Positions 22,201 to 32,395 of a DNA stretch of 64,000 bases are shown here, piece by piece. The DNA comes from Vibrio ziniensis. Lineage in GTDB: Bacteria > Pseudomonadota > Gammaproteobacteria > Enterobacterales > Vibrionaceae. Location of the stretch: assembly GCF_011064285.1 (NCBI RefSeq), contig NZ_CP049331.1, positions 1,302,001 through 1,366,000 on the forward strand, in the 5' to 3' direction. Made by a program: the position numbers and the translations under genes. The notes beneath the pieces are model-generated. The model had not been told where the DNA came from and made no database searches. It saw nothing but the letters and a program-made list of their open reading frames with translations. Position 1 is the stretch's first letter; each line of letters opens with the position of its first letter.

Positions 22201-23196
22201 ATGGATTTCAATCAACTCATGTTGCATAAGCAGCAGCGCTGGAAAAGAGCAGGCTATTTTTTGCTTGCAGTATTATTGTTTGCCAGTGCGGTCTATTTGA
22301 TGGTTGGTGAAATTTTTATCTCGCCTTTACGCTCGTTGGACGACCTAGAAACGCGTTTAGTTTTAGACTTGCGTTTACCAAGGTTGCTCGCCGCAATGAT
22401 GATTGGTGCAGCATTAGCTGTTTCAGGAGCAACACTTCAAGTTTTGCTCGGTAATGTACTTGCTGAGCCTGGGATCATTGGTATTTCAGGGGGGGCAAGT
22501 GTAGCAATGGTTATTTTGCTGTTTTTCTTTCCTGCAATTGCTAGCCCAGAAGCTTTTATGGTTTCTGCAATTATTGGGGCTCTGTTGTTCACTTTATTGC
22601 TGGTGTTTGTAGCCAATGCAATGCGGCTTACAACAACACGTCTACTGTTAGTGGGGGTCGCTCTTGGAATTTTGTCTGGTTCAGTCGTTACATGGGCATT
22701 TTACTTTAGTGATGAACTCAGTCTACGTCAGCTTATGTACTGGCTGATGGGTAGTATTGGTGGTGCCAGTTGGTATCAACACACTCTCACTCTTATTGCT
22801 TTACCGATCATGATTTGGTTGCTGTTTCAAGGCTCTGTGCTGGATAAGCTGATGTTAGGTGAAACTCATGCCAAACAGTTAGGTGTTGATATCAATAAAA
22901 TTCGGTGGAAATTGATCGTTGCTGTATCGGTATTGGTGGGAGCTGCGGTTGCATTAGGCGGGGTGATAGGATTTGTTGGTTTGGTTGTCCCTCATTTGTT
23001 GCGATTAGCGTTAGGGTCTGAAAATCGGATGTTGCTGCCTCTGAGTGCTCTCTGTGGAGCGCTTCTAATGGTGCTTGCCGATATGGTTGCACGCCTCGCT
23101 TTGGATTCTGCTGAGCTGCCTTTAGGTGTTGTAACAACTACTATTGGCGCTCCAATTTTTATCTGGATGCTGGTAAAAAATCATGATTCGCGTTAA
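22201..23196 (+). CDS. btuC: Vitamin B12 ABC transporter permease BtuC
   Basis: Inner-membrane permease of the B12 importer BtuCDF; FecCD family. The 331 residues form about ten helices with the family motifs [20 protein letters not shown] and [16 protein letters not shown]. Upstream lies the astE terminator, so the gene has its own promoter in a 107-bp gap where no riboswitch is seen. The ribosome binding site is weak; a second ATG at 22219 is an alternative start. It overlaps btuD by 14 bases. btuF is not in the window. Confidence 0.93.
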
Positions 23197-23938
23197 CAGT
23201 TTGCACGTCAATGAGCGTTTATTGCCACTATCGTTCCAGTGTGAGGCTGGAGAAATTCTCCATGTTGTTGGCCCAAATGGAAGTGGTAAAAGTACTCTTC
23301 TGTCTGCACTAGCAGGAATAATTGATAGTTCGGGAGAGATCTTACTTGGAGAGTTCAATATAAAAAAACATTCTCTAAGTGAGTTAGCTCTCCATAGAGC
23401 CTATCTATCTCAAAGTGAAAAGCCCGCCTTTAATCTGGATGTTTTTCAATACTTAGCGTTATCTCTACCAATCAATAGCTCCCTGCAAGATCCTAAAGTT
23501 AACAATGCAGTGAAGCACTTTACTCAATTATTGAAGATTAACGACAAGCTTCACCGTTCAATCCATCAGCTATCTGGCGGAGAATGGCAGCGAGTCCGTT
23601 TAGCTGGTAGTTGTTTACAAGTATGGCCTGATATCAACCCTTATTCTAAATTATTGATTCTCGACGAACCTGGTGCACCTTTAGATATCGCTCAAGAAGG
23701 GTTGTTATATCAGCTTATTGCACAAATGGCTCAAGAAGGACTGGCTATCGTTATGGCTAATCATGATTTAAACAGGAGCTTACGTAATGCTGATAAGGTT
23801 TTGCTTCTAGAACAGGGAATTGCTCAGAGTATTGGTGTGCCAAGTGAAGTATTGAGTGAAGAGCATCTTCGTAGTGTATTTAATACATCTGTGAAATGTG
23901 TAGCAATTGATGGAAAACCTTACTTAGTTTTCGATTAG
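23183..23938 (+). CDS. btuD: Vitamin B12 ABC transporter ATP-binding protein BtuD
   Basis: ATPase of the B12 importer, 251 residues (E. coli BtuD is 249). Walker A is [13 protein letters not shown], the ABC signature is [15 protein letters not shown], and Walker B is [12 protein letters not shown] followed by the switch His in [11 protein letters not shown]. The start lies inside the btuC 3' end, so translation is coupled. With cobTSU upstream it makes a local cobalamin salvage and uptake group. Confidence 0.94.
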
Positions 23939-23940
23939 TT

Positions 23941-23959
23941 TTGGTGCATCGAGCACAAA
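23941..23959. promoter_or_regulatory. Imperfect dyad, candidate enhancer site for a sigma-54 activator
   Basis: GTGC (23944-23947) and GCAC (23953-23956) are inverted around ATCGA, with flanking TT and AA also symmetric. The dyad sits about 140 bp before the predicted sigma-54 start, a normal distance for enhancer-binding proteins. Which activator binds is unknown. Confidence 0.35.
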
Positions 23960-24033
23960 TCTGGTTCAGCCTTCAATATGCTAGCTTGCTAACTCATTGT
24001 TTATATTAAACGCCTATACATTATATTCTTTAA

Positions 24034-24046
24034 TATCAATGGGTTA
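24034..24046 (+). promoter_or_regulatory. IHF-binding site, perfect consensus
   Basis: TATCAATGGGTTA matches WATCAANNNNTTR at every position. It is centred about 49 bp before the predicted start of the sigma-54 promoter, where IHF commonly bends DNA to bring the activator to the polymerase. Confidence 0.55.
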
Positions 24047-24061
24047 TTTAATTTTTAAAAG

Positions 24062-24078
24062 TTGGCACGCAATTAGCA
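24062..24078 (+). promoter_or_regulatory. Sigma-54 promoter
   Basis: TTGGCACGCAATTAGCA matches the YTGGCACG-N4-TTGCW consensus. GG is at 24064-24065 and GC at 24076-24077 with the required ten bases between; the one deviation is TAGCA instead of TTGCA. The predicted start is about 24089. No protein gene lies downstream on this strand before the terminator. Confidence 0.6.
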
Positions 24079-24088
24079 TTAATAAGAG

Positions 24089-24160
24089 TGATACATTCTC
24101 GTTCTTGTTAGGCTTTTTATAGTCTCATTAGCCACCTTGCTCCCAAGGTGGCCTTTTTTT
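24089..24160 (+). ncRNA. Candidate sigma-54-dependent small RNA (about 72 nt)
   Basis: A sigma-54 promoter and a strong terminator enclose about 72 bases with no start codon followed by a usable reading frame. The unit lies between btuD and a minus-strand gene, so it cannot be the promoter of a neighbouring protein gene. The sequence does not match the quorum-regulatory Qrr RNAs or GlmY/GlmZ as I know them. The 3' stem-loop plus T-run is of the kind recognised by Hfq. It is a prediction from promoter, IHF site and terminator only. Confidence 0.5.
24131..24160 (+). terminator. Rho-independent terminator of the candidate sRNA
   Basis: Eight-base stem GCCACCTT (24131-24138) / AAGGTGGC (24145-24152), extended by G24139-C24144, followed by seven T. 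Confidence 0.9.
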
Positions 24161-24200
24161 ATCAGTTAGTTATGGTGCTGAATGAGACATTGGTAGGATT

Positions 24201-24361
24201 ATACCAATTGCCTTAATTTCCTGATCAAGTAGACATTGAGTGCCGATAAGCAAACCCTCCGAGCCATGGATGGCTCGGCGGAGCCCCAAGGATGGGTTTA
24301 TGCGTGTTTGCGTTCGGTGCTCTTTGTCTAAGACTGAACAGTTTAATAGTGCAATTAGTAT
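24201..24361. repeat. MITE-like palindromic repeat, copy C (inverted, 161 bp)
   Basis: Inverted relative to copies A and B and more diverged. It shares the core CGATAAGCAAACCCTCCGAG and the central hairpin CCGAGCCATGGATGGCTCGG (24261-24280 region). Its ends are ATACCAATTG (24201) and CAATTAGTAT (24352-24361). Its inner arms (24238-24246 and 24314-24322) have a different sequence from those of A but still pair over nine positions. The right end coincides with the stop codon of the MazG-like gene. Confidence 0.75.
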
Positions 24362-24936
24362 TACTGTGTTAACGCTTCTAGGTTTGCTGGGCGGTAGTAT
24401 ACTGACTTCAATACTTTACCTTGGCGAATCGTTTTGCTATCAGAAACAAAGTCTTCTGCACATTTTGCAATTAGGTAGTCACCTTTTTGCACAGCCATCA
24501 ACTTGATGCCTTGCTCCGCGTAATAAGCTTCTGTATCGCCGTATTCTTTCTCGTTGCGACATACTTTGCTCATGTTTGAGCTATGAACTTCATCCCAGCA
24601 AGGAAGGAAATCGATGTTGCGGTTTACTGCAACGTTGAGTAGCAAGTCAATCAAATAGCTGATAGCTATGTTGTCATTAATATTACTGTGACCAAGATGA
24701 ACTAGGCGTCCCATAAGGACATAAACACTGTCTACAATCGCATCAGCTTGCTCGGTTTTGCTGTCTGCTTCAGCAAGTTCTGTAAGCTCTTCGATTGCTA
24801 ATGAGGTGTGAAGGGTATCTGCTTTTGTATCTAAGCTAGACGGGTCCGCTACTGGTAAGTCAAAAGTGCTACGGAATTCGTTGATGTCGCGGTATAGGTG
24901 ATCATAAATTTCTTGTGTCAGCTTAGATAAATGCAT
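24361..24936 (-). CDS. MazG-like NTP pyrophosphohydrolase-type protein
   Basis: A 191-residue cytoplasmic protein starting MHLSKLTQEIYDHLYRDINEF. HTSLAIEELTELAEADSKTEQADAIVDSVYVLMGRL resembles the EExxE...ExxD metal-binding helices of the MazG / HisE / dUTPase-like all-alpha pyrophosphohydrolases, with E69-E70-E73 and D84 in suitable places. Members cleave NTPs to NMP and PPi. The substrate here is unknown. I start at ATG 24936; an upstream in-frame start would add a short hydrophobic, non-conserved lead. The stop codon touches the right end of repeat C. Confidence 0.65.
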   Translation of the reverse strand: MHLSKLTQEIYDHLYRDINEFRSTFDLPVADPSSLDTKADTLHTSLAIEELTELAEADSKTEQADAIVDSVYVLMGRLVHLGHSNINDNIAISYLIDLLLNVAVNRNIDFLPCWDEVHSSNMSKVCRNEKEYGDTEAYYAEQGIKLMAVQKGDYLIAKCAEDFVSDSKTIRQGKVLKSVYYRPANLEALTQ

Positions 24937-25525: not shown

Positions 25526-26149
25526 CTAGTTAGGTAACGCAGTGAATACGTTCCACTCTTTAACTATTGCACTTTTATAACCGATAACGCTTGCTGTCAC
25601 TCTTCTGTTGATGGCATGTGCGGTCTCTGAATCTTCAACTGATGCTAGCTCAGTGTCGCCAAAGCCAACAATTCTTACTCTGTTGCTTTCAATGCCATAA
25701 CGAAGTAATTGAGCTTCTACCGCCTCTGAACGTCTTTGAGATAGTTTGAGATTATGATTCTGATTGCCAACCTTGCTTGCATATCCCTTGATCTCGATTG
25801 AGGTTGAAGGATAAGTTTTCAAAAATTCGGCCATTTGGCGAATCTGGCTAATAAATACTGGTGGTATGTTGTTAGAATCATTAGCAAATAAAATATGTAA
25901 GTATTGAAGCTTTGATGTTTTAACAAAAGTACCACAGCCATCATTGTCAATGTCAGAAAATGAAGGCGTGTCGGGGCAAAGATCTCGGGCGTTGATTACT
26001 CCGTCATTATCATTGTCTTCCAAATCTGCTATTTGATTGATTTCAGGTACAGCAATGTAATCATATTCATCGCTAGCTACATTTTCTCCAGCATAAACGA
26101 ACATTGCAGTGCTTAATGTCGCTGTAAGAACAACTAATGCGCTTTTCAT
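25526..26149 (-). CDS. OmpA-family protein with a thrombospondin type-3 calcium motif
   Basis: A 207-residue exported protein. The signal peptide ends at VYA-GEN (residue 20). A type-3 thrombospondin-like calcium repeat, DNDNDGVINARDLCPDTP, lies at about 46-63. The C-terminal OmpA domain (about 85-190) has the peptidoglycan-binding region around IEIKGYASKVG and LSQRRSEAV...RVRIVGFGD. There is no transmembrane barrel, so it is probably periplasmic and anchored to murein. It starts one base after the TolC-like gene ends and shares its terminator, so it should work with that exporter. Such a gene pair next to a giant adhesin is also seen in Lap/Bap-type loci. Confidence 0.85.
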   Translation of the reverse strand: MKSALVVLTATLSTAMFVYAGENVASDEYDYIAVPEINQIADLEDNDNDGVINARDLCPDTPSFSDIDNDGCGTFVKTSKLQYLHILFANDSNNIPPVFISQIRQMAEFLKTYPSTSIEIKGYASKVGNQNHNLKLSQRRSEAVEAQLLRYGIESNRVRIVGFGDTELASVEDSETAHAINRRVTASVIGYKSAIVKEWNVFTALPN

Positions 26150-26150
26150 C

Positions 26151-27491
26151 TTAATACTTCACCTTCTCTATCCATTCAGGTGCTACGTCCACTCGTAGCG
26201 CATCTAACAAATTGCCTGTGGAATTCATTACTCGATATTTAGCGTATTGCTCAGCATATTTAGCATCCAGATAGTCTTTACGTGCTTGAAACAGCTCATT
26301 TTCAGTGTTGAGAAGATCTAGCAGTGTACGCTGACCGATCAAGTATTGCTTTCTATAAGAGGCGACAGTCTGAGAAGTTGAATCTACGTGGTCAGATAAA
26401 AACTCTTTTTGTTGGAGCGTTAAATCTAGCGCACTCCATGACAAGCGTAGTCCTTCTTCTACGGAGCGAAATGTGTTCTCACGTAAGTCTTTTGCTTTAT
26501 TAAGTTGATAAGCAGCACTTTCGGATTGGTCGCTGTCGCTACCACCGTTATAGATGTTGTAGCGTAGTCGTACCATTGCTGTGAGCTCATCACTGCTACC
26601 CTTGTTCCCATCAGCATCGTCATACCAACTTTGAGAAGCTTCAAATGATATTGTTGGGTAGTAGGGAGCTTTTGACTGCTTATATTGGAAGCGTGCTGCA
26701 TCCACATCTGTTTGAGCAACTTTAATAACAGGGTGCTCGTTGAATGCTTTTTTTAAGGCTTCTTCTACTGTGTTGGGAATTGCGGTACTGTCTGCTCTAG
26801 GAAAAGTTAGACCTAATGGCTCCTGTCCAACTAAGCGGCGAAATTGGGTATGTGTGTCATACAAATTATTTTGTGCTGCAAGTAAGTTACCCATAGCTTT
26901 CGCAATACGTGCTTCCACTTGAGTTACATCTGCAATAGAGCCAACCCCAGAGTCTGCTCGTTTTTTTATGTCTCTGTATATCTCTTTATGCGTAGCCAGA
27001 TTTTTTTCTGACAAAACTAATACTTCGTATGCCTTTGTTGCCTCGAGATAAACATTAGTGACTTCGAGGGCTTTGTTCGATGCGTCTGAAAGTAGCTGGT
27101 AACGGTCAGATTCCGCTTCAGCTGCCGTACGATCCATATTGTTTAATGTCGATGAACCATCCCAAATAAGTTGGGTGAGTGTAATGGATGCATCTTTCCG
27201 AGTCATTTCCGTGTCAGGGTTACCTGTAGAAGACGCTGGGTTTATACCTTCATAGCCGATGCCTGCATCCAGATCGATTTTAGGTAGATATGCGCCAGAG
27301 GATGAATTCGAGTCGGATAGACGGCTTTTATATTGGTTAAACGCACTTTTCAATTCAGGGTTGGAGGCAAGTGTAAGTGATACTGCTTGCTCAAGTGTTT
27401 GAGCAGAAACAGATCCTGCTAAGGATACTGAAAGCCAAATAAGCGTTCTAATTGGAAACCCTTTCAAAATGAACTCCATCAAAAATGACAT
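26151..27491 (-). CDS. TolC-family outer-membrane channel of a type I secretion system (LapE/AggA-like)
   Basis: A 446-residue outer-membrane efflux protein with a signal peptide ending SVSA-QTLEQAV. Two homologous OEP halves are visible (the repeats start near TLEQAVSLTLASNPEL and TVEEALKKAFNEHPVI). It has the AggA/LapE-type ending LLDLLNTENELFQARKDYLDAKY followed by MNSTGNLLDALRV. It is divergent from the RTX adhesin gene and is presumably its export channel. The inner-membrane ABC protein and membrane-fusion protein of the same system are not in the window. The first ATG is used; ATG 27479 would give a tighter signal peptide. Confidence 0.88.
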   Translation of the reverse strand: MSFLMEFILKGFPIRTLIWLSVSLAGSVSAQTLEQAVSLTLASNPELKSAFNQYKSRLSDSNSSSGAYLPKIDLDAGIGYEGINPASSTGNPDTEMTRKDASITLTQLIWDGSSTLNNMDRTAAEAESDRYQLLSDASNKALEVTNVYLEATKAYEVLVLSEKNLATHKEIYRDIKKRADSGVGSIADVTQVEARIAKAMGNLLAAQNNLYDTHTQFRRLVGQEPLGLTFPRADSTAIPNTVEEALKKAFNEHPVIKVAQTDVDAARFQYKQSKAPYYPTISFEASQSWYDDADGNKGSSDELTAMVRLRYNIYNGGSDSDQSESAAYQLNKAKDLRENTFRSVEEGLRLSWSALDLTLQQKEFLSDHVDSTSQTVASYRKQYLIGQRTLLDLLNTENELFQARKDYLDAKYAEQYAKYRVMNSTGNLLDALRVDVAPEWIEKVKY

Positions 27492-27829: not shown

Positions 27830-27904
27830 AAAGCAGTCGTGATTTTATCGGTTATTAGACGATTAATTATTGAAATGCAGGTAATGAGTATTTTTGAGGC
27901 TTCT

Positions 27905-30900
27905 ATGGATAAAAGTTCTTTATTATCAATCGCAAATTTAGCAATAAATCAAATGATTGTGATTGACAAAAATGGCGATTTAAAAATAGCAACTATTGGC
28001 GAAAAATTGCCTGAAGGAACGGTAATCATCCAAAGAGGCGATGAGATGATTTCTAATGACGAATTTGTCACTAAAATCATCGGTCCAAATAATGAGCCTC
28101 AAAATGTGAGTGACGATGTTGCACAGTTACTTTCTGCTTTAGAAGAAGGACAGGATCCGACACAGCTTGGTGATGAACTAGCTCCTGCAGCTGGAGGCAG
28201 TCAAGGCTCCTCACTTACAGATTCTGCAAGTGTTGAACGGTCAGCTTCAGAAACTATTGCTACAACAAGTTTTAGCACTACAGGATTTGAATCTTTGGGC
28301 TTTTCTCAAACCCAAAGTCTAGCGTTGATTAGTCTTACCAGTACCAGCTCAAACTCTGCAGAAATCGTCACTCAAAATAGTGCACCAAATGCTGAAAATG
28401 ACACCATAACTGTAAATGAAGATACATCAATAACAATTGACGTATTGAATAACGATATTGACGAGGATGGTGATGCATTAACTATTGTGTCTGCAACCGT
28501 TTCTGAAGACGAAGGTACCATCGAAATTGTCGATGGCAAGTTAGTCTTTACTCCAGCTGAAAATTTCAATGGTGAAGTTAGTATTGAATACACAATTACT
28601 GACAATCAAGGTGGTACTGATACAGCGCAAGTAACTGTCACGGTTAATGCGGTCAATGACGCGCCGACCACCACCTCTGTCGACTTGGGCAGTGTGGAAG
28701 AAGACGGCTCGGTGCTCATCACCACCGCGCAGCTGCTGGCTAACGCGTCCGATATTGAAAGCGATACTCTCTTTATCAGCGGGTTGACCGCGAGCCGCGG
28801 CAGTCTGGTGGACAACGGCGACGGCACCTGGACCTATACGCCAGAGGCTGACGACGACAGCGCGGTGAGCTTTAGCTACACCATCACGGACAATGGCACC
28901 ACCGACGGCGAGAGCGATCCGCAATCGGTGAGTGGCAGCGCCACGTTAGACATTACGCCGGTCAATGACGCGCCGACCACCTCGGCCGTGAACTTGGGCA
29001 GCGTGGAAGAAGACGGCTCGGTGCTCATCACTACCGCGCAGCTGCTGGCTAACGCGTCCGATATTGAAAGCGATACTCTCTTTATCAGCGGGTTGACCGC
29101 GAGCCGCGGCAGTCTGGTGGACAACGGCGACGGCACCTGGACCTATACGCCGGTGGCTGACGACGACAGCGCGGTGAGCTTTAGCTACACCATCACGGAT
29201 AATGGCACCACCGACGGCGAGAGCGATCCGCAATCGGTGAGTGGCAGCGCCACGTTAGACATTACGCCGGTCAATGACGCGCCGACCACCACCTCTGTCG
29301 ACTTAGGCAGTGTGGAAGAAGACGGCTCGGTGCTCATCACCACCGCGCAGCTGCTGGCTAACGCGTCCGATATTGAAAGCGATACTCTCTCCATCAGCGG
29401 GTTGACCGCGAGCAGCGGCAGTCTGGTGGACAACGGCGACGGCACCTGGACTTATACGCCGGTGGCTGACGACGACAGCGCGGTGAGCTTTAGCTACACC
29501 ATCACGGATAATGGCACCACCGACGGCGAGAGCGATCCGCAATCGGTGAGTGGCAGCGCCACGTTAGACATTACGCCGGTCAATGACGCGCCGACCACCA
29601 CCTCTGTCGACTTAGGCAGTGTGGAAGAAGACGGCTCGGTGCTCATCACCACCGCGCAGCTGCTGGCTAACGCGTCCGATATTGAAAGCGATACTCTCTC
29701 CATCAGCGGGTTGACCGCGAGCAGCGGCAGTCTGGTGGACAACGGCGACGGCACCTGGACTTATACGCCGGCAGCTAACGATGACAACGTGAGCTTTAGT
29801 TACACCATTACTGATAATGGTGAGACTAACGGTGTTGCTGATCCAAAATCTGTACAAGGAAGTGCAGTTTTAGAGGTAAACAATATTCCAACAATTGATT
29901 TGAACTTTGATACATCTGAAGATGCGACTCACTCAGTTTCCGTAAGTGCCGAAACGAGTGGTACAGATGTTATTGGTTATTATATTGTTAATGATGACGG
30001 CACAATAAGCCAAAAAGGAGCTATTGTGTCTACTAATAACTGGAATTCTGCTTCTTATGAAGATGGGATTGCAGCATTACTGGCATCTGGCGGAACTGTA
30101 TATCTCTTTGCTGTTACCTTAACATCGAGCTCTGTCATTGCTGCCGTAAGCAATGGTGATTTTGACGTAAATAGTGATGGTACTGTTACTGTATCAAGCT
30201 CTAGCTCATCATCATCTACAGTAACCTCTACAGCTCTAGATGACCTGTTGGATGTTGCTAACCTCGGTCTTGTAGTGAGTAATAATACTCTGACTTCAAC
30301 TAATGATGATGTTGAAGTTACTTATGATAGCCGTACCAATACTTATACAGTTAGCATCGATGGGGTGTCTTACGAGGGTGTGACTGTTAGTTCTGGCGGA
30401 AGCATTGTGTTGGATGATTTCAGAGTAGTGATCAATGATGATGGTGATATCAATATTGGTATTGAAGATTGGACGGACAATGATTACAACGATTTAGCTA
30501 TTACTTTCTCAGGCTATGATGTTGGTGTTGATGCAGATGTTAGCGGTACGGTAGGTGTCCCTGTATCGATTGTGAGTGAAAACATAGCCATTGGTGATGA
30601 TGAAAACGCGATTAGCTCGGTGACATTAACGGTTTCAACCGTGGATGGCGAACTGTTTATAGGTGGCAGTGCTATTGATAGCGAAACATCAACAGTTATT
30701 GTGAGTGGTCAAGAATATGTTGTTAGTATTTCTAACGGTACTTACACATTTACCTCTATTGACGATAGCGGTAATGAAGTATCCGCAACTACCGAACAGT
30801 ATGAAGAACTGTTGCAATCTATTACTTATAGCAGCGAGATCGAAGGCTACGGCACTATTACTATCACAGTAACTGATGATGCAGGGCAGACTGCTACTGC

Positions 30901-32395
30901 GACATCCACAATTTATGTCGAATCTGACGGTTCTAGCGATTCTATTCATATTCAGGATGACACGTTGAGCTACTCTCAGAGTTACGGTGGTAATGGTGAA
31001 ACCGTTCAATACAACAATGGTGGCAATCATACCGTGGAGATTGAGCTTGATTCTTCTGTATCGACTATTACAGTCTCTTTAGCTGATAAAGATAGTGGGA
31101 AAAATGGTAACGAGTACGGTCAATGGACGGTTTACGGTGAAAACGAAGACGGTACAATCAACTACGATTCGGTTATCGCATACGGTACATTTAGCGTTGA
31201 CGATGATGGTGGTATTTCCGACGCAGTCGTGACGTACCCACAAGATGGGTCGTTTACAGTAGAGGTGGATGGTAGTTCAATTACTATTAGTAGTGGTTCG
31301 ACGGTAATTGAAAATGTGGTTTTTTCAGCGGTGAGTCCAGGTAGCCATTACTATGTAACAGGCTATAGTACGAGTTACGCTATTACTAATAATACGATTA
31401 CTATCGCTGCTGCTACGTTGCTGGCCAATGACACCACTACTAGTGGTGCTACATTGTCCCTACTAGCAAGTTCGTTAACCAGCGATGATTCAAATGTGAG
31501 TGATATCGCTTATGATGAAACCACAGGCAGCATTATCATTACGTTAGTTGATGGTGTGAGTTCTTCTGATGATTCTGTTGATATTTCCTTCAGTTACAAA
31601 GCTACTGATGGCACCTTGATATCAGATGCCGCCACTGTAACTCTATCAGCAACATCCAACGGCTCTGATACCTCTCATAGTTTTGAAGGTTTTACGGGGG
31701 ACATTGATAGTGCTATCAATGAGTATGCATCTGCCAATTATGACTATGCATATTATTCGCACAATACATACGGTACATCAGGAAATGACCATATCGTAGG
31801 TTACAACTATTATAGTGACACTTTAGCTAGTGGTGATGGTGACGATTGGATACAAGGGCAAAGTGGCAGTGATATTATCGATGCCGGTGATGGTGATGAC
31901 TTGCTACAAGGTGGTAGTGGCAATGACACCCTGTACGGCGGTGACGGTAACGATATTCTTGTTGGTGGCAACGATGAGGGATATTACTGTGTATCCGACA
32001 ACGATAAACTTTATGGTGGTGACGGGAATGACGTCCTGATAGGTGGAAGTGGTCATGACATCTTAACAGGTGGTGATGGAAGCGACTTGTTCGTGCTTGG
32101 CTCAGGTTCTGAAAATTCAGACACAATAGTGGATTTTGATTCAGAAGAAGATGCAATTGATATTTCAGATTTACTTGATGTCGGAAGCAGTGATGATATT
32201 CAGAGTTATATAGAAGCACATATAACTATTTCTACTGATAGTGAAGGGGCTTATACGTTGGAGGTAACCGATTCATCTGGATGCAGTTCAACCTCGTATG
32301 ATGCAGCGACGTTTGGTCAAGATTCGAATATAGGGTCTGGAGACATTATCTCGGTCATATTTAACAACCAAGAGTATAAAGTGACTGTTGATTAG
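27905..32395 (+). CDS. Large LapA/BapA-type RTX adhesin with retention module
   Basis: Surface adhesin secreted by a type I system, 1496 residues from ATG 27905. That start has GAGG five bases upstream; in-frame starts at 27884 and 27839 are alternatives. Order: a retention module (INQMIVIDKNGDLKIATIGEKLPEGTVI); a PAAG di-alanine site at 94-97, like the LapG cleavage motif; a cadherin/VCBS-like domain; four 103-residue tandem repeats; a DUF4114-like stretch (EDWTDNDYNDLAITFSG); more Ig-like regions; and about six GGxGxDxL calcium nonapeptides near the end, then a type I signal region (DTIVDFDSEEDAIDISDLL). It should mediate calcium-dependent attachment or biofilm formation, with release by a LapG-type protease under c-di-GMP control. 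It has no inner-membrane transporter genes beside it. Confidence 0.88.
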   Translation: MDKSSLLSIANLAINQMIVIDKNGDLKIATIGEKLPEGTVIIQRGDEMISNDEFVTKIIGPNNEPQNVSDDVAQLLSALEEGQDPTQLGDELAPAAGGSQGSSLTDSASVERSASETIATTSFSTTGFESLGFSQTQSLALISLTSTSSNSAEIVTQNSAPNAENDTITVNEDTSITIDVLNNDIDEDGDALTIVSATVSEDEGTIEIVDGKLVFTPAENFNGEVSIEYTITDNQGGTDTAQVTVTVNAVNDAPTTTSVDLGSVEEDGSVLITTAQLLANASDIESDTLFISGLTASRGSLVDNGDGTWTYTPEADDDSAVSFSYTITDNGTTDGESDPQSVSGSATLDITPVNDAPTTSAVNLGSVEEDGSVLITTAQLLANASDIESDTLFISGLTASRGSLVDNGDGTWTYTPVADDDSAVSFSYTITDNGTTDGESDPQSVSGSATLDITPVNDAPTTTSVDLGSVEEDGSVLITTAQLLANASDIESDTLSISGLTASSGSLVDNGDGTWTYTPVADDDSAVSFSYTITDNGTTDGESDPQSVSGSATLDITPVNDAPTTTSVDLGSVEEDGSVLITTAQLLANASDIESDTLSISGLTASSGSLVDNGDGTWTYTPAANDDNVSFSYTITDNGETNGVADPKSVQGSAVLEVNNIPTIDLNFDTSEDATHSVSVSAETSGTDVIGYYIVNDDGTISQKGAIVSTNNWNSASYEDGIAALLASGGTVYLFAVTLTSSSVIAAVSNGDFDVNSDGTVTVSSSSSSSSTVTSTALDDLLDVANLGLVVSNNTLTSTNDDVEVTYDSRTNTYTVSIDGVSYEGVTVSSGGSIVLDDFRVVINDDGDINIGIEDWTDNDYNDLAITFSGYDVGVDADVSGTVGVPVSIVSENIAIGDDENAISSVTLTVSTVDGELFIGGSAIDSETSTVIVSGQEYVVSISNGTYTFTSIDDSGNEVSATTEQYEELLQSITYSSEIEGYGTITITVTDDAGQTATATSTIYVESDGSSDSIHIQDDTLSYSQSYGGNGETVQYNNGGNHTVEIELDSSVSTITVSLADKDSGKNGNEYGQWTVYGENEDGTINYDSVIAYGTFSVDDDGGISDAVVTYPQDGSFTVEVDGSSITISSGSTVIENVVFSAVSPGSHYYVTGYSTSYAITNNTITIAAATLLANDTTTSGATLSLLASSLTSDDSNVSDIAYDETTGSIIITLVDGVSSSDDSVDISFSYKATDGTLISDAATVTLSATSNGSDTSHSFEGFTGDIDSAINEYASANYDYAYYSHNTYGTSGNDHIVGYNYYSDTLASGDGDDWIQGQSGSDIIDAGDGDDLLQGGSGNDTLYGGDGNDILVGGNDEGYYCVSDNDKLYGGDGNDVLIGGSGHDILTGGDGSDLFVLGSGSENSDTIVDFDSEEDAIDISDLLDVGSSDDIQSYIEAHITISTDSEGAYTLEVTDSSGCSSTSYDAATFGQDSNIGSGDIISVIFNNQEYKVTVD
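28652..29887 (+). repeat. Four tandem 309-bp repeats inside the adhesin gene
   Basis: Units begin at 28652, 28961, 29270 and 29579 (each opening GTCAATGACGCGCCGACCAC) and encode 103 residues. Copies 3 and 4 are virtually identical until about 29770, after which copy 4 diverges. Copies 1 and 2 share variants that 3 and 4 lack. The repeats are visibly GC-richer than the rest of the gene and use different codons. This suggests recent duplication or transfer, and a copy number that could vary or be miscounted in an assembly. Confidence 0.93.

Follow-up and report, generated by a model that had tools for sequence, protein, structure and literature searches.

The window, by which we mean the whole 64,000-nucleotide stretch of DNA that was analysed, carries an intergenic region between btuD and a convergent MazG-like gene. 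The initial annotation proposed an undescribed sigma-54-dependent small RNA (sRNA) gene there. The locus is laid out as follows:

23183..23938, + strand: btuD, vitamin B12 ABC transporter ATP-binding protein, the upstream neighbour (NCBIfam PRK03695.1 equivalog above cut-off)
23942..23968, + strand: predicted enhancer (UAS) with NtrC-type half-sites TGGTGCA, AGCAC and TGGTTCA (NtrC matrix, conserved dyad)
24034..24046, + strand: IHF consensus site TATCAATGGGTTA (sequence; conserved position in relatives)
24063..24078, + strand: predicted sigma-54 promoter TGGCACGCAATTAGCA (-24/-12), the best in the window (conserved TGGC-N9-GC)
24090..24160, + strand: small RNA, predicted start 24089 or 24090 (alignments A1 and A2, fold, model R1)
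24090..24113, + strand: conserved 5′ head GATACATTCTCGTTCTTGTTAGGC, mostly single-stranded, presumed seed (conservation, unpaired probability)
24131..24160, + strand: intrinsic terminator, 9-bp stem and T run (terminator scan, covariation)
24361..24936, - strand: MazG-like gene (all-alpha NTP pyrophosphohydrolase type), convergent (Pfam PF01503 PRA-PH above cut-off)

The MazG-like gene has no NCBIfam match in the profile search. The gene next downstream of the small RNA sits on the opposite strand, in keeping with the claim that no protein gene follows on the same strand. Among 54 distinct loci, a few of which end too early to judge, btuD lies upstream in 44 and a convergent MazG-like gene downstream in 41, with both present in 34. 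Two loci (L026 and L036) are sited elsewhere, with an astE-like gene convergent downstream and btuD absent. Further along the window, positions 27839-32395 encode a large adhesin-like protein with cadherin-like, Big and RTX repeats; near it are an OmpA-family protein (25526-26149) and, judged by eye, a look-alike of TolC-type outer membrane proteins (26151-27491).

Sigma-54 promoters have the consensus TGGCACGNNNNTTGCW, and TGGCACGCAATTAGCA at 24063-24078 is its sole one-mismatch match in the 64-kb window; the near-consensus -24/-12 promoter had been placed at 24064-24077. Window sites with at most two mismatches to the consensus number 6, against 6.3 in shuffles. A consensus match alone proves little, and on that measure the promoter is weak; it is conservation that raises it above chance. 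TGGC-N9-GC precedes the head at 31 of 31 sites (30 loci listed) from a search blind to the promoter, at -27 in 30 cases and at -28 in one, so that the -24/-12 elements are retained in relatives, a point on which the proposal could have failed. Loci L016-L058 were retrieved by a pattern that contains the promoter, and are excluded as evidence for it. A -24 GG and a -12 GC at fixed spacing, kept in relatives, are what would be expected of a sigma-54 promoter. The perfect IHF consensus reported for 24034-24046 lies at exactly those positions, and an IHF consensus is found at -54 to -57 in 29 of 52 upstream regions (shuffled rate 0.6%), with the exact consensus at 17 of the 31 promoter-blind sites (30 loci listed).

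The predicted transcript (24090-24160) has a length of about 71-72 nt, the annotated figure of about 72 nt being recovered from a start at 24089 or 24090. Its predicted fold energy is below that of 200 of 200 shuffles (z -3.9), and nucleotides 1-20 of the head have a mean unpaired probability of 0.83. The terminator, annotated at 24131-24160, consists of the stem GCCACCTTG-CTCC-CAAGGTGGC at 24131-24152 followed by a T run; the scan gave one terminator, against a shuffle mean of 0.1. The stem covaries, eight of its nine pairs having changes on both sides in relatives with 92.6% of cells paired, and none of 500 shuffles has as high a pairing score (24 distinct rows). A simple scan finds a terminator at 26 of the 31 promoter-blind sites (30 loci listed). 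The predicted U-tailed intrinsic terminator and the apparently single-stranded, conserved seed are features of Hfq-type base-pairing sRNAs. The short transcript lacks an ATG, as the claimed absence of a start codon required, and the only ORF of at least 40 aa over it starts with TTG and spans the promoter too.

The first 16 bases of the head are invariant in 26 aligned short forms, the invariance of the first 13 of these being a product of locus selection. All 54 loci were found via patterns holding the first 13 or 15 head bases, so invariance there in A1 and A2 follows from selection; long forms and TCGTCC-variant loci were left out of A2. Base 14 is C in five loci of the larger head alignment. 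The middle of the RNA is variable, the total ranging among loci from about 72 nt to about 150 nt. Longer RNAs of up to about 150 nt are seen in coralliilyticus/tubiashii-like lineages (L017, L025, L028, L033, L038, L040, L050 and relatives), in which a stretch around ATGGCAGCTTNCGCCACC, conserved by eye, enters the terminator stem.

The exact head 15-mer GATACATTCTCGTTC is found in 59 of 196 Vibrio genomes, at 62 sites (reversed control 2). A DNA similarity search of 41 genomes gave a match in 15, nine of which (window included) hold the RNA, and GATACATTCTCGT, the first 13 head bases, is unchanged in all eight RNA loci found in this way (L002-L009). Among the other matches, three are different sigma-54 promoters (by eye pspA in L010, and qrr in L011 and L015), and the head is absent from L012-L014. 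A pattern scan of named species genomes that required the promoter gave 43 loci, all titled Vibrio, with carriers that include V. plantisponsor, V. furnissii, V. anguillarum, V. metschnikovii, V. coralliilyticus, V. metoecus, V. ruber and V. litoralis. Model R1, comprising promoter and head, found the RNA in at least 67 of 296 genomes of the family, a lower bound given its strict filters, and all of these belong to one of 13 genera. Genomes are called RNA-bearing or RNA-lacking here on the basis of the 15-mer and R1 searches. Where a MazG-like gene is present and the 15-mer is missing (29 genomes), the head is absent from that place in 26 and variant in 3 (L203, L207 and L208, two of which hold GATACATTCTCGT and one TACATTCTCGTTCT), so that in most cases the module is either there in its entirety or missing altogether; some of the 26 head-less places do have TGGC-type matches. 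Some genomes have more than one copy: L061 (G154) holds two tandem RNA genes 351 bp apart (at 1500 and 1851), each with an NtrC site and a sigma-54 promoter, V. hannami KACC 19277 has two copies on different contigs (L021 and L045), and G116 and G177 have two head matches each.

Only a tRNA reached its gathering score in an Rfam scan of the window, so the RNA has no Rfam family; a permissive Rfam search of 23900-24200 gave five weak matches, the best being the patAB leader (E 0.029), far below cut-off, with Qrr absent. In the literature as represented by titles and the starts of abstracts, with subscription papers mostly outside its scope, a description of an sRNA between btuD and a MazG-like gene was not found, and it is possible that the RNA has been detected in RNA-seq tables elsewhere. 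The same titles and abstract starts yielded no nitrogen-regulated sRNA for Vibrio. Taken with the conserved promoter, IHF phasing and terminator covariation, the distribution of the locus supports the proposed reading: a small RNA gene of the sigma-54 type, conserved, distinct from Qrr and without a family in Rfam.

The upstream dyad, annotated as an imperfect one at 23941-23959, is GTGCATCGAGCAC at 23944-23956, and forms the left part of a longer element with three half-sites, TGGTGCA-TCG-AGCAC-AAATC-TGGTTCA (23942-23968), in which an NtrC dimer site, GCAC-N7-GTTC, occupies 23953-23967. Dyad positions were compared over 53 upstream regions, window included, after two of 55 were dropped for being shorter than 200 nt: the dyad lies at -123 to -126 in 31, at -135 to -138 in 10 and at -146 in 3, of which the window is one. 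These positions step by about one helical turn. The inner dyad GTGC-N5-GCAC is kept within one mismatch in 45 of the 53 (including L088, where its position is off), and has two or more mismatches in the other 8. The dyad-plus-promoter pattern occurs once in the window's genome (control 0). The dyad alone failed as a finder of further regulon members, its relaxed form (at most two mismatches) giving 170 sites genome-wide against 112 in the control. With the promoter at a shorter distance, there were 8 matches against 4 in the control in 25 relatives, one of them the RNA of the btuD-MazG locus. A separate match outside the small RNA locus, L096 (G013:C3:195546-195646), has a dyad GGTGCACAATGCACC followed by TGGC-N9-GC.

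The NtrC box of E. coli is given as TGCACCAnnnTGGTGCA (PMC8743547, partial text). A position matrix for NtrC was built from glnA, which in 41 genomes gave 30 loci and 29 extracted promoters (one lacked a recognised start), and 28 sites after one poor site was dropped. The window region scores 12.4 with this matrix, with none of 60 shuffles as good, these shuffles and those of the motif counts preserving base composition only. Over the 52 upstream regions remaining when three of 55 shorter than 250 nt were dropped from the matrix and motif comparisons, the matrix beats all 60 shuffles in 30 and is equalled by at most three of 60 in 45, leaving 7 in which more than 3 of 60 shuffles do as well. 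Scores run from -5 to 17 at the RNA, against 18 to 28 at glnA, which is the training set. At L018 and L044 the matrix gives no recognisable site, though the promoter and a variant head are present. Counted directly, GCAC-N7-GTGC is exact in 8 of the 52 regions, within one mismatch in 25 (the window copy has one mismatch) and within two in 50. Within one mismatch, other spacings occur in 4 (N5), 3 (N6), 0 (N8) and 3 (N9) regions, so that N7 alone is enriched, and six control motifs (four spacings, swapped and mirrored halves) match in 0-4 regions within one mismatch and in 13-30 within two. At L021, L026, L036 and L061 (twice), GTGC-N5-GCAC is off by one or two bases and the NtrC dimer site is perfect. 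By both the counts and the glnA matrix, a putative NtrC site of the E. coli box type lies at enhancer distance. The constancy of the inner dyad perhaps reflects an unusual arrangement, in which two overlapping dimers share strong inner half-sites.

The initial annotation left the activator open as NtrC, LuxO or another enhancer-binding protein. The glnA matrix and the N7 spacing favour the first of these and make NtrC the most likely activator. A Qrr-like quorum-sensing RNA driven by LuxO or SypG came into consideration since Qrr RNAs are sigma-54-driven and the 5-3-5 spacing of LuxO half-sites resembles GTGCA-N3-TGCAC; LuxO sites have the form TTGCAWWWTGCAA and SypG sites the form TTCTCANNNTGMDWN (PMC10162802, partial text). 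Neither motif occurs within one mismatch in any of the 52 upstream regions, and Rfam gives only one tRNA in the window, so that LuxO is set aside on the motif counts and hardly any weight can be given to this explanation. It is also conceivable, if unlikely, that the same RNA answers to another enhancer-binding protein of NtrC-related specificity, such as the regulators L131, L132 and L133 or the DctD-like L136. Sigma54_activat matches in the window's genome number 17 (14 strong), several without a proven site, and the most constant part of the element, the inner dyad, departs from the geometry of the NtrC box; against this, NtrC is singled out by matrix and spacing among the three motifs compared (NtrC, LuxO and SypG), and the stretch before the tungstate transporter-like genes beside L133 lacks such a dyad. 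HMMs above their cut-offs name NtrC, LuxO, NifA, NorR, PspF, TyrR and a PEP-CTERM-type regulator in this genome, with FlrA, FlrC, VpsR, DctD and AcoR being names given by eye to other regulators. A resemblance to DctD enhancer sites was considered and dropped, and the response regulator beside the tungstate-like genes (L133/L146) was rejected, the neighbouring sigma-54-like promoter having no such dyad. At L146 (7793-9247 and 9413), a sigma-54-type response regulator and a kinase lie beside genes resembling a tungstate ABC transporter, which a sigma-54-like promoter precedes. The NifA match (L129, G000:C2:560694-561194) is above the NCBIfam nifA cut-off, and suggests that the host is probably a nitrogen-fixing Vibrio.

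A different kind of objection concerns the product rather than its activator. Instead of a trans-acting sRNA, the transcript might be a leader or encode a tiny protein, or the head might be conserved as a DNA or protein-binding element. In favour of this, the head is constant where the middle differs in length from form to form (72 to about 150 nt), and in some long forms, by eye, a short reading frame with an ATG overlaps the terminator stem. Such a reading is distinctly improbable, given that the terminator is kept by covariation and lies close behind the head in the short forms, that the next gene is on the opposite strand, and that no ATG is common to the heads of the 26 aligned short forms. 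We put the probability of a stand-alone regulatory sRNA gene at this locus, activated by NtrC and sigma-54 in nitrogen starvation, with a product that acts by base pairing, at roughly 0.82.

The mRNA of the ammonium transporter gene amt is a candidate target of the RNA, with a chance of about one in three. A search of four genomes for complements of the 16-mer head with at most three mismatches gave no excess (135 sites, against 134 in the control), and one of the 30 places listed (L254, in G126) lies over the point where an ammonium transporter gene starts, its start codon included. The lead is post hoc, and the pairing test was repeated without the four discovery genomes. In the window's genome (G000), the amt Shine-Dalgarno/start region, GGAGTGTAACGAGAATG, is complementary to bases 5-14 of the RNA; this amt (G000:C1:1591786-1592994) matches Pfam PF00909 and, at 313.8, scores under the NCBIfam amt cut-off of 343.3. 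Amt was found in 21 of 26 chosen genomes (E <= 1e-60), all five without it being RNA-bearing (5 of 20). Of the 15 RNA-bearing genomes with amt, six have ACGAGAATG at the amt start (G000, G063, G126, G172, G111 and G118), G171 and G013 have it with one change, and seven lack a clean site. None of the six RNA-lacking genomes has it, a difference (6/15 against 0/6, one-sided Fisher 0.09) that is not significant alone.

Pairing energies were computed with the window's head for every genome, including some (G014, G022) that differ after base 13 or 16. The mean energy of head-amt pairing over the 15 RNA-bearing genomes is matched by 4 of 1000 shuffled heads (the head beats 996), and in the six RNA-lacking genomes 300 of 1000 are as good; the difference between the two sets is matched by 17 of 1000 shuffles. 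Without G126 and G171, 8 of 1000 shuffles reach the value, and 5 of 1000 do so for the 10 genomes that remain once G171 and the four discovery genomes have been removed. The motif GGAG-N1-6-ACGAGAATG has 26 sites (control 6) in 35 RNA-bearing genomes, and 8 (control 9) in 25 RNA-lacking ones. Of these 34 places 30 are listed, and of the other four the one in G111 is the amt start known from L287. On the places so identified, 9 of 35 RNA-bearing genomes carry the motif where amt starts, against a single one (G056) of the 25 RNA-lacking genomes (one-sided Fisher 0.026, taking no account of relatedness). In a sample of 425 gene starts from the window's genome, amt ranks 10th by pairing energy and joint first by perfect run, which is not significant alone; the sample relied on simple ORF calling, and one stretch was chosen to contain amt.

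In 9 of 21 genomes, the two sites that the NtrC matrix ranks highest fall about 40 and about 240-260 bases upstream of the amt start codon, in a ranking without a shuffle control. Upstream of the window genome's amt (L286), an NtrC-type site is seen between a sigma-54-like promoter (by eye) and the amt start, with another far upstream; the near site might act as a brake. Whether amt is the target is a separate question from the nature of the RNA, and its odds are not to be added to those above. That this is a real NtrC-dependent sRNA whose true conserved target was missed, amt not being it, is rather probable, as amt is absent or site-less in many RNA-bearing genomes and the complement search showed no excess, even with a pairing that is specific to RNA-bearing genomes and NtrC-type sites that precede amt. 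Targets besides amt are expected. GGAG-N3-ACGAGAATG also stands at the start of a gene identified by eye as tyrS, in 6 of 35 RNA-bearing and 0 of 25 RNA-lacking genomes among the matches listed (L298, L299, L309, L310, L312 and L316), possibly as a second target or through a clade effect. The same start motif is found at pntB, again by eye, in two genomes among the matches listed; the tyrS and pntB matches may be further targets or chance.

The promoter, IHF site, NtrC-type enhancer, terminator and conserved head can be recognised in the DNA itself, and from them we infer activation by NtrC in the cell, production of the RNA and its use of Hfq. Under nitrogen limitation, NtrC would bind the enhancer at 23942-23968, IHF would bend the DNA between enhancer and promoter, and NtrC would open the sigma-54 promoter at 24063-24078. 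The product would be a 72-nt RNA, its 5′ head exposed and its terminator U-tailed, acting via base pairing, probably with Hfq. On weaker grounds, the head may pair with the amt Shine-Dalgarno/start region and damp translation. As amt is preceded by NtrC-type sites, such pairing would make a feed-forward loop, in which NtrC drives both the transporter gene and the RNA that damps it. Extended to the genus, and only tentatively, this pictures a Vibrio sRNA family in an incoherent feed-forward loop with NtrC, in which the head covers the amt start codon and limits transporter synthesis, the head staying fixed as target sites come and go between lineages. The locus would connect post-transcriptional control with nitrogen starvation in Vibrio, where the sigma-54 RNAs known best, the Qrr RNAs, serve quorum sensing. 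Its predicted promoter anatomy is complete, and it comes with a concrete candidate target. At a single site, some lineages have this regulatory module and others do not, and its enhancer, apparently built of overlapping NtrC half-sites, slides by whole helical turns.

Three known systems invite comparison. The sRNA GlnZ, from the glnA 3′ UTR of Enterobacteriaceae, is linked to nitrogen like the Vibrio RNA, but is released from glnA mRNA, whereas the Vibrio RNA has its own predicted promoter. The published account ties that sRNA to nitrogen limitation (PMC9731577). Vibrio Qrr RNAs share with the RNA described here a sigma-54 promoter, a distant enhancer and an intergenic sRNA gene in Vibrio, but they have the LuxO enhancer TTGCAWWWTGCAA. 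The RNA of the btuD-MazG locus has a different head and neither that enhancer (0 of 52) nor an Rfam match, which bears out the early impression that it does not look like Qrr. NrsZ of Pseudomonas aeruginosa, as described in PMC9308961, is at least 226 nt long, is processed, adjoins ntrC and has the motif ACAGGCAG. The Vibrio RNA has a short form of about 72 nt, and it is set apart from NrsZ by motif and position: ACAGGCAG is absent from 24090-24160, and ntrC (G000:C1, about 142 kb) is not adjacent to the small RNA (1326 kb). What the two would have in common is a stand-alone sRNA gene induced by NtrC and sigma-54 when nitrogen is limiting, as described for NrsZ with NtrB/C and RpoN (PMC9308961, partial text).
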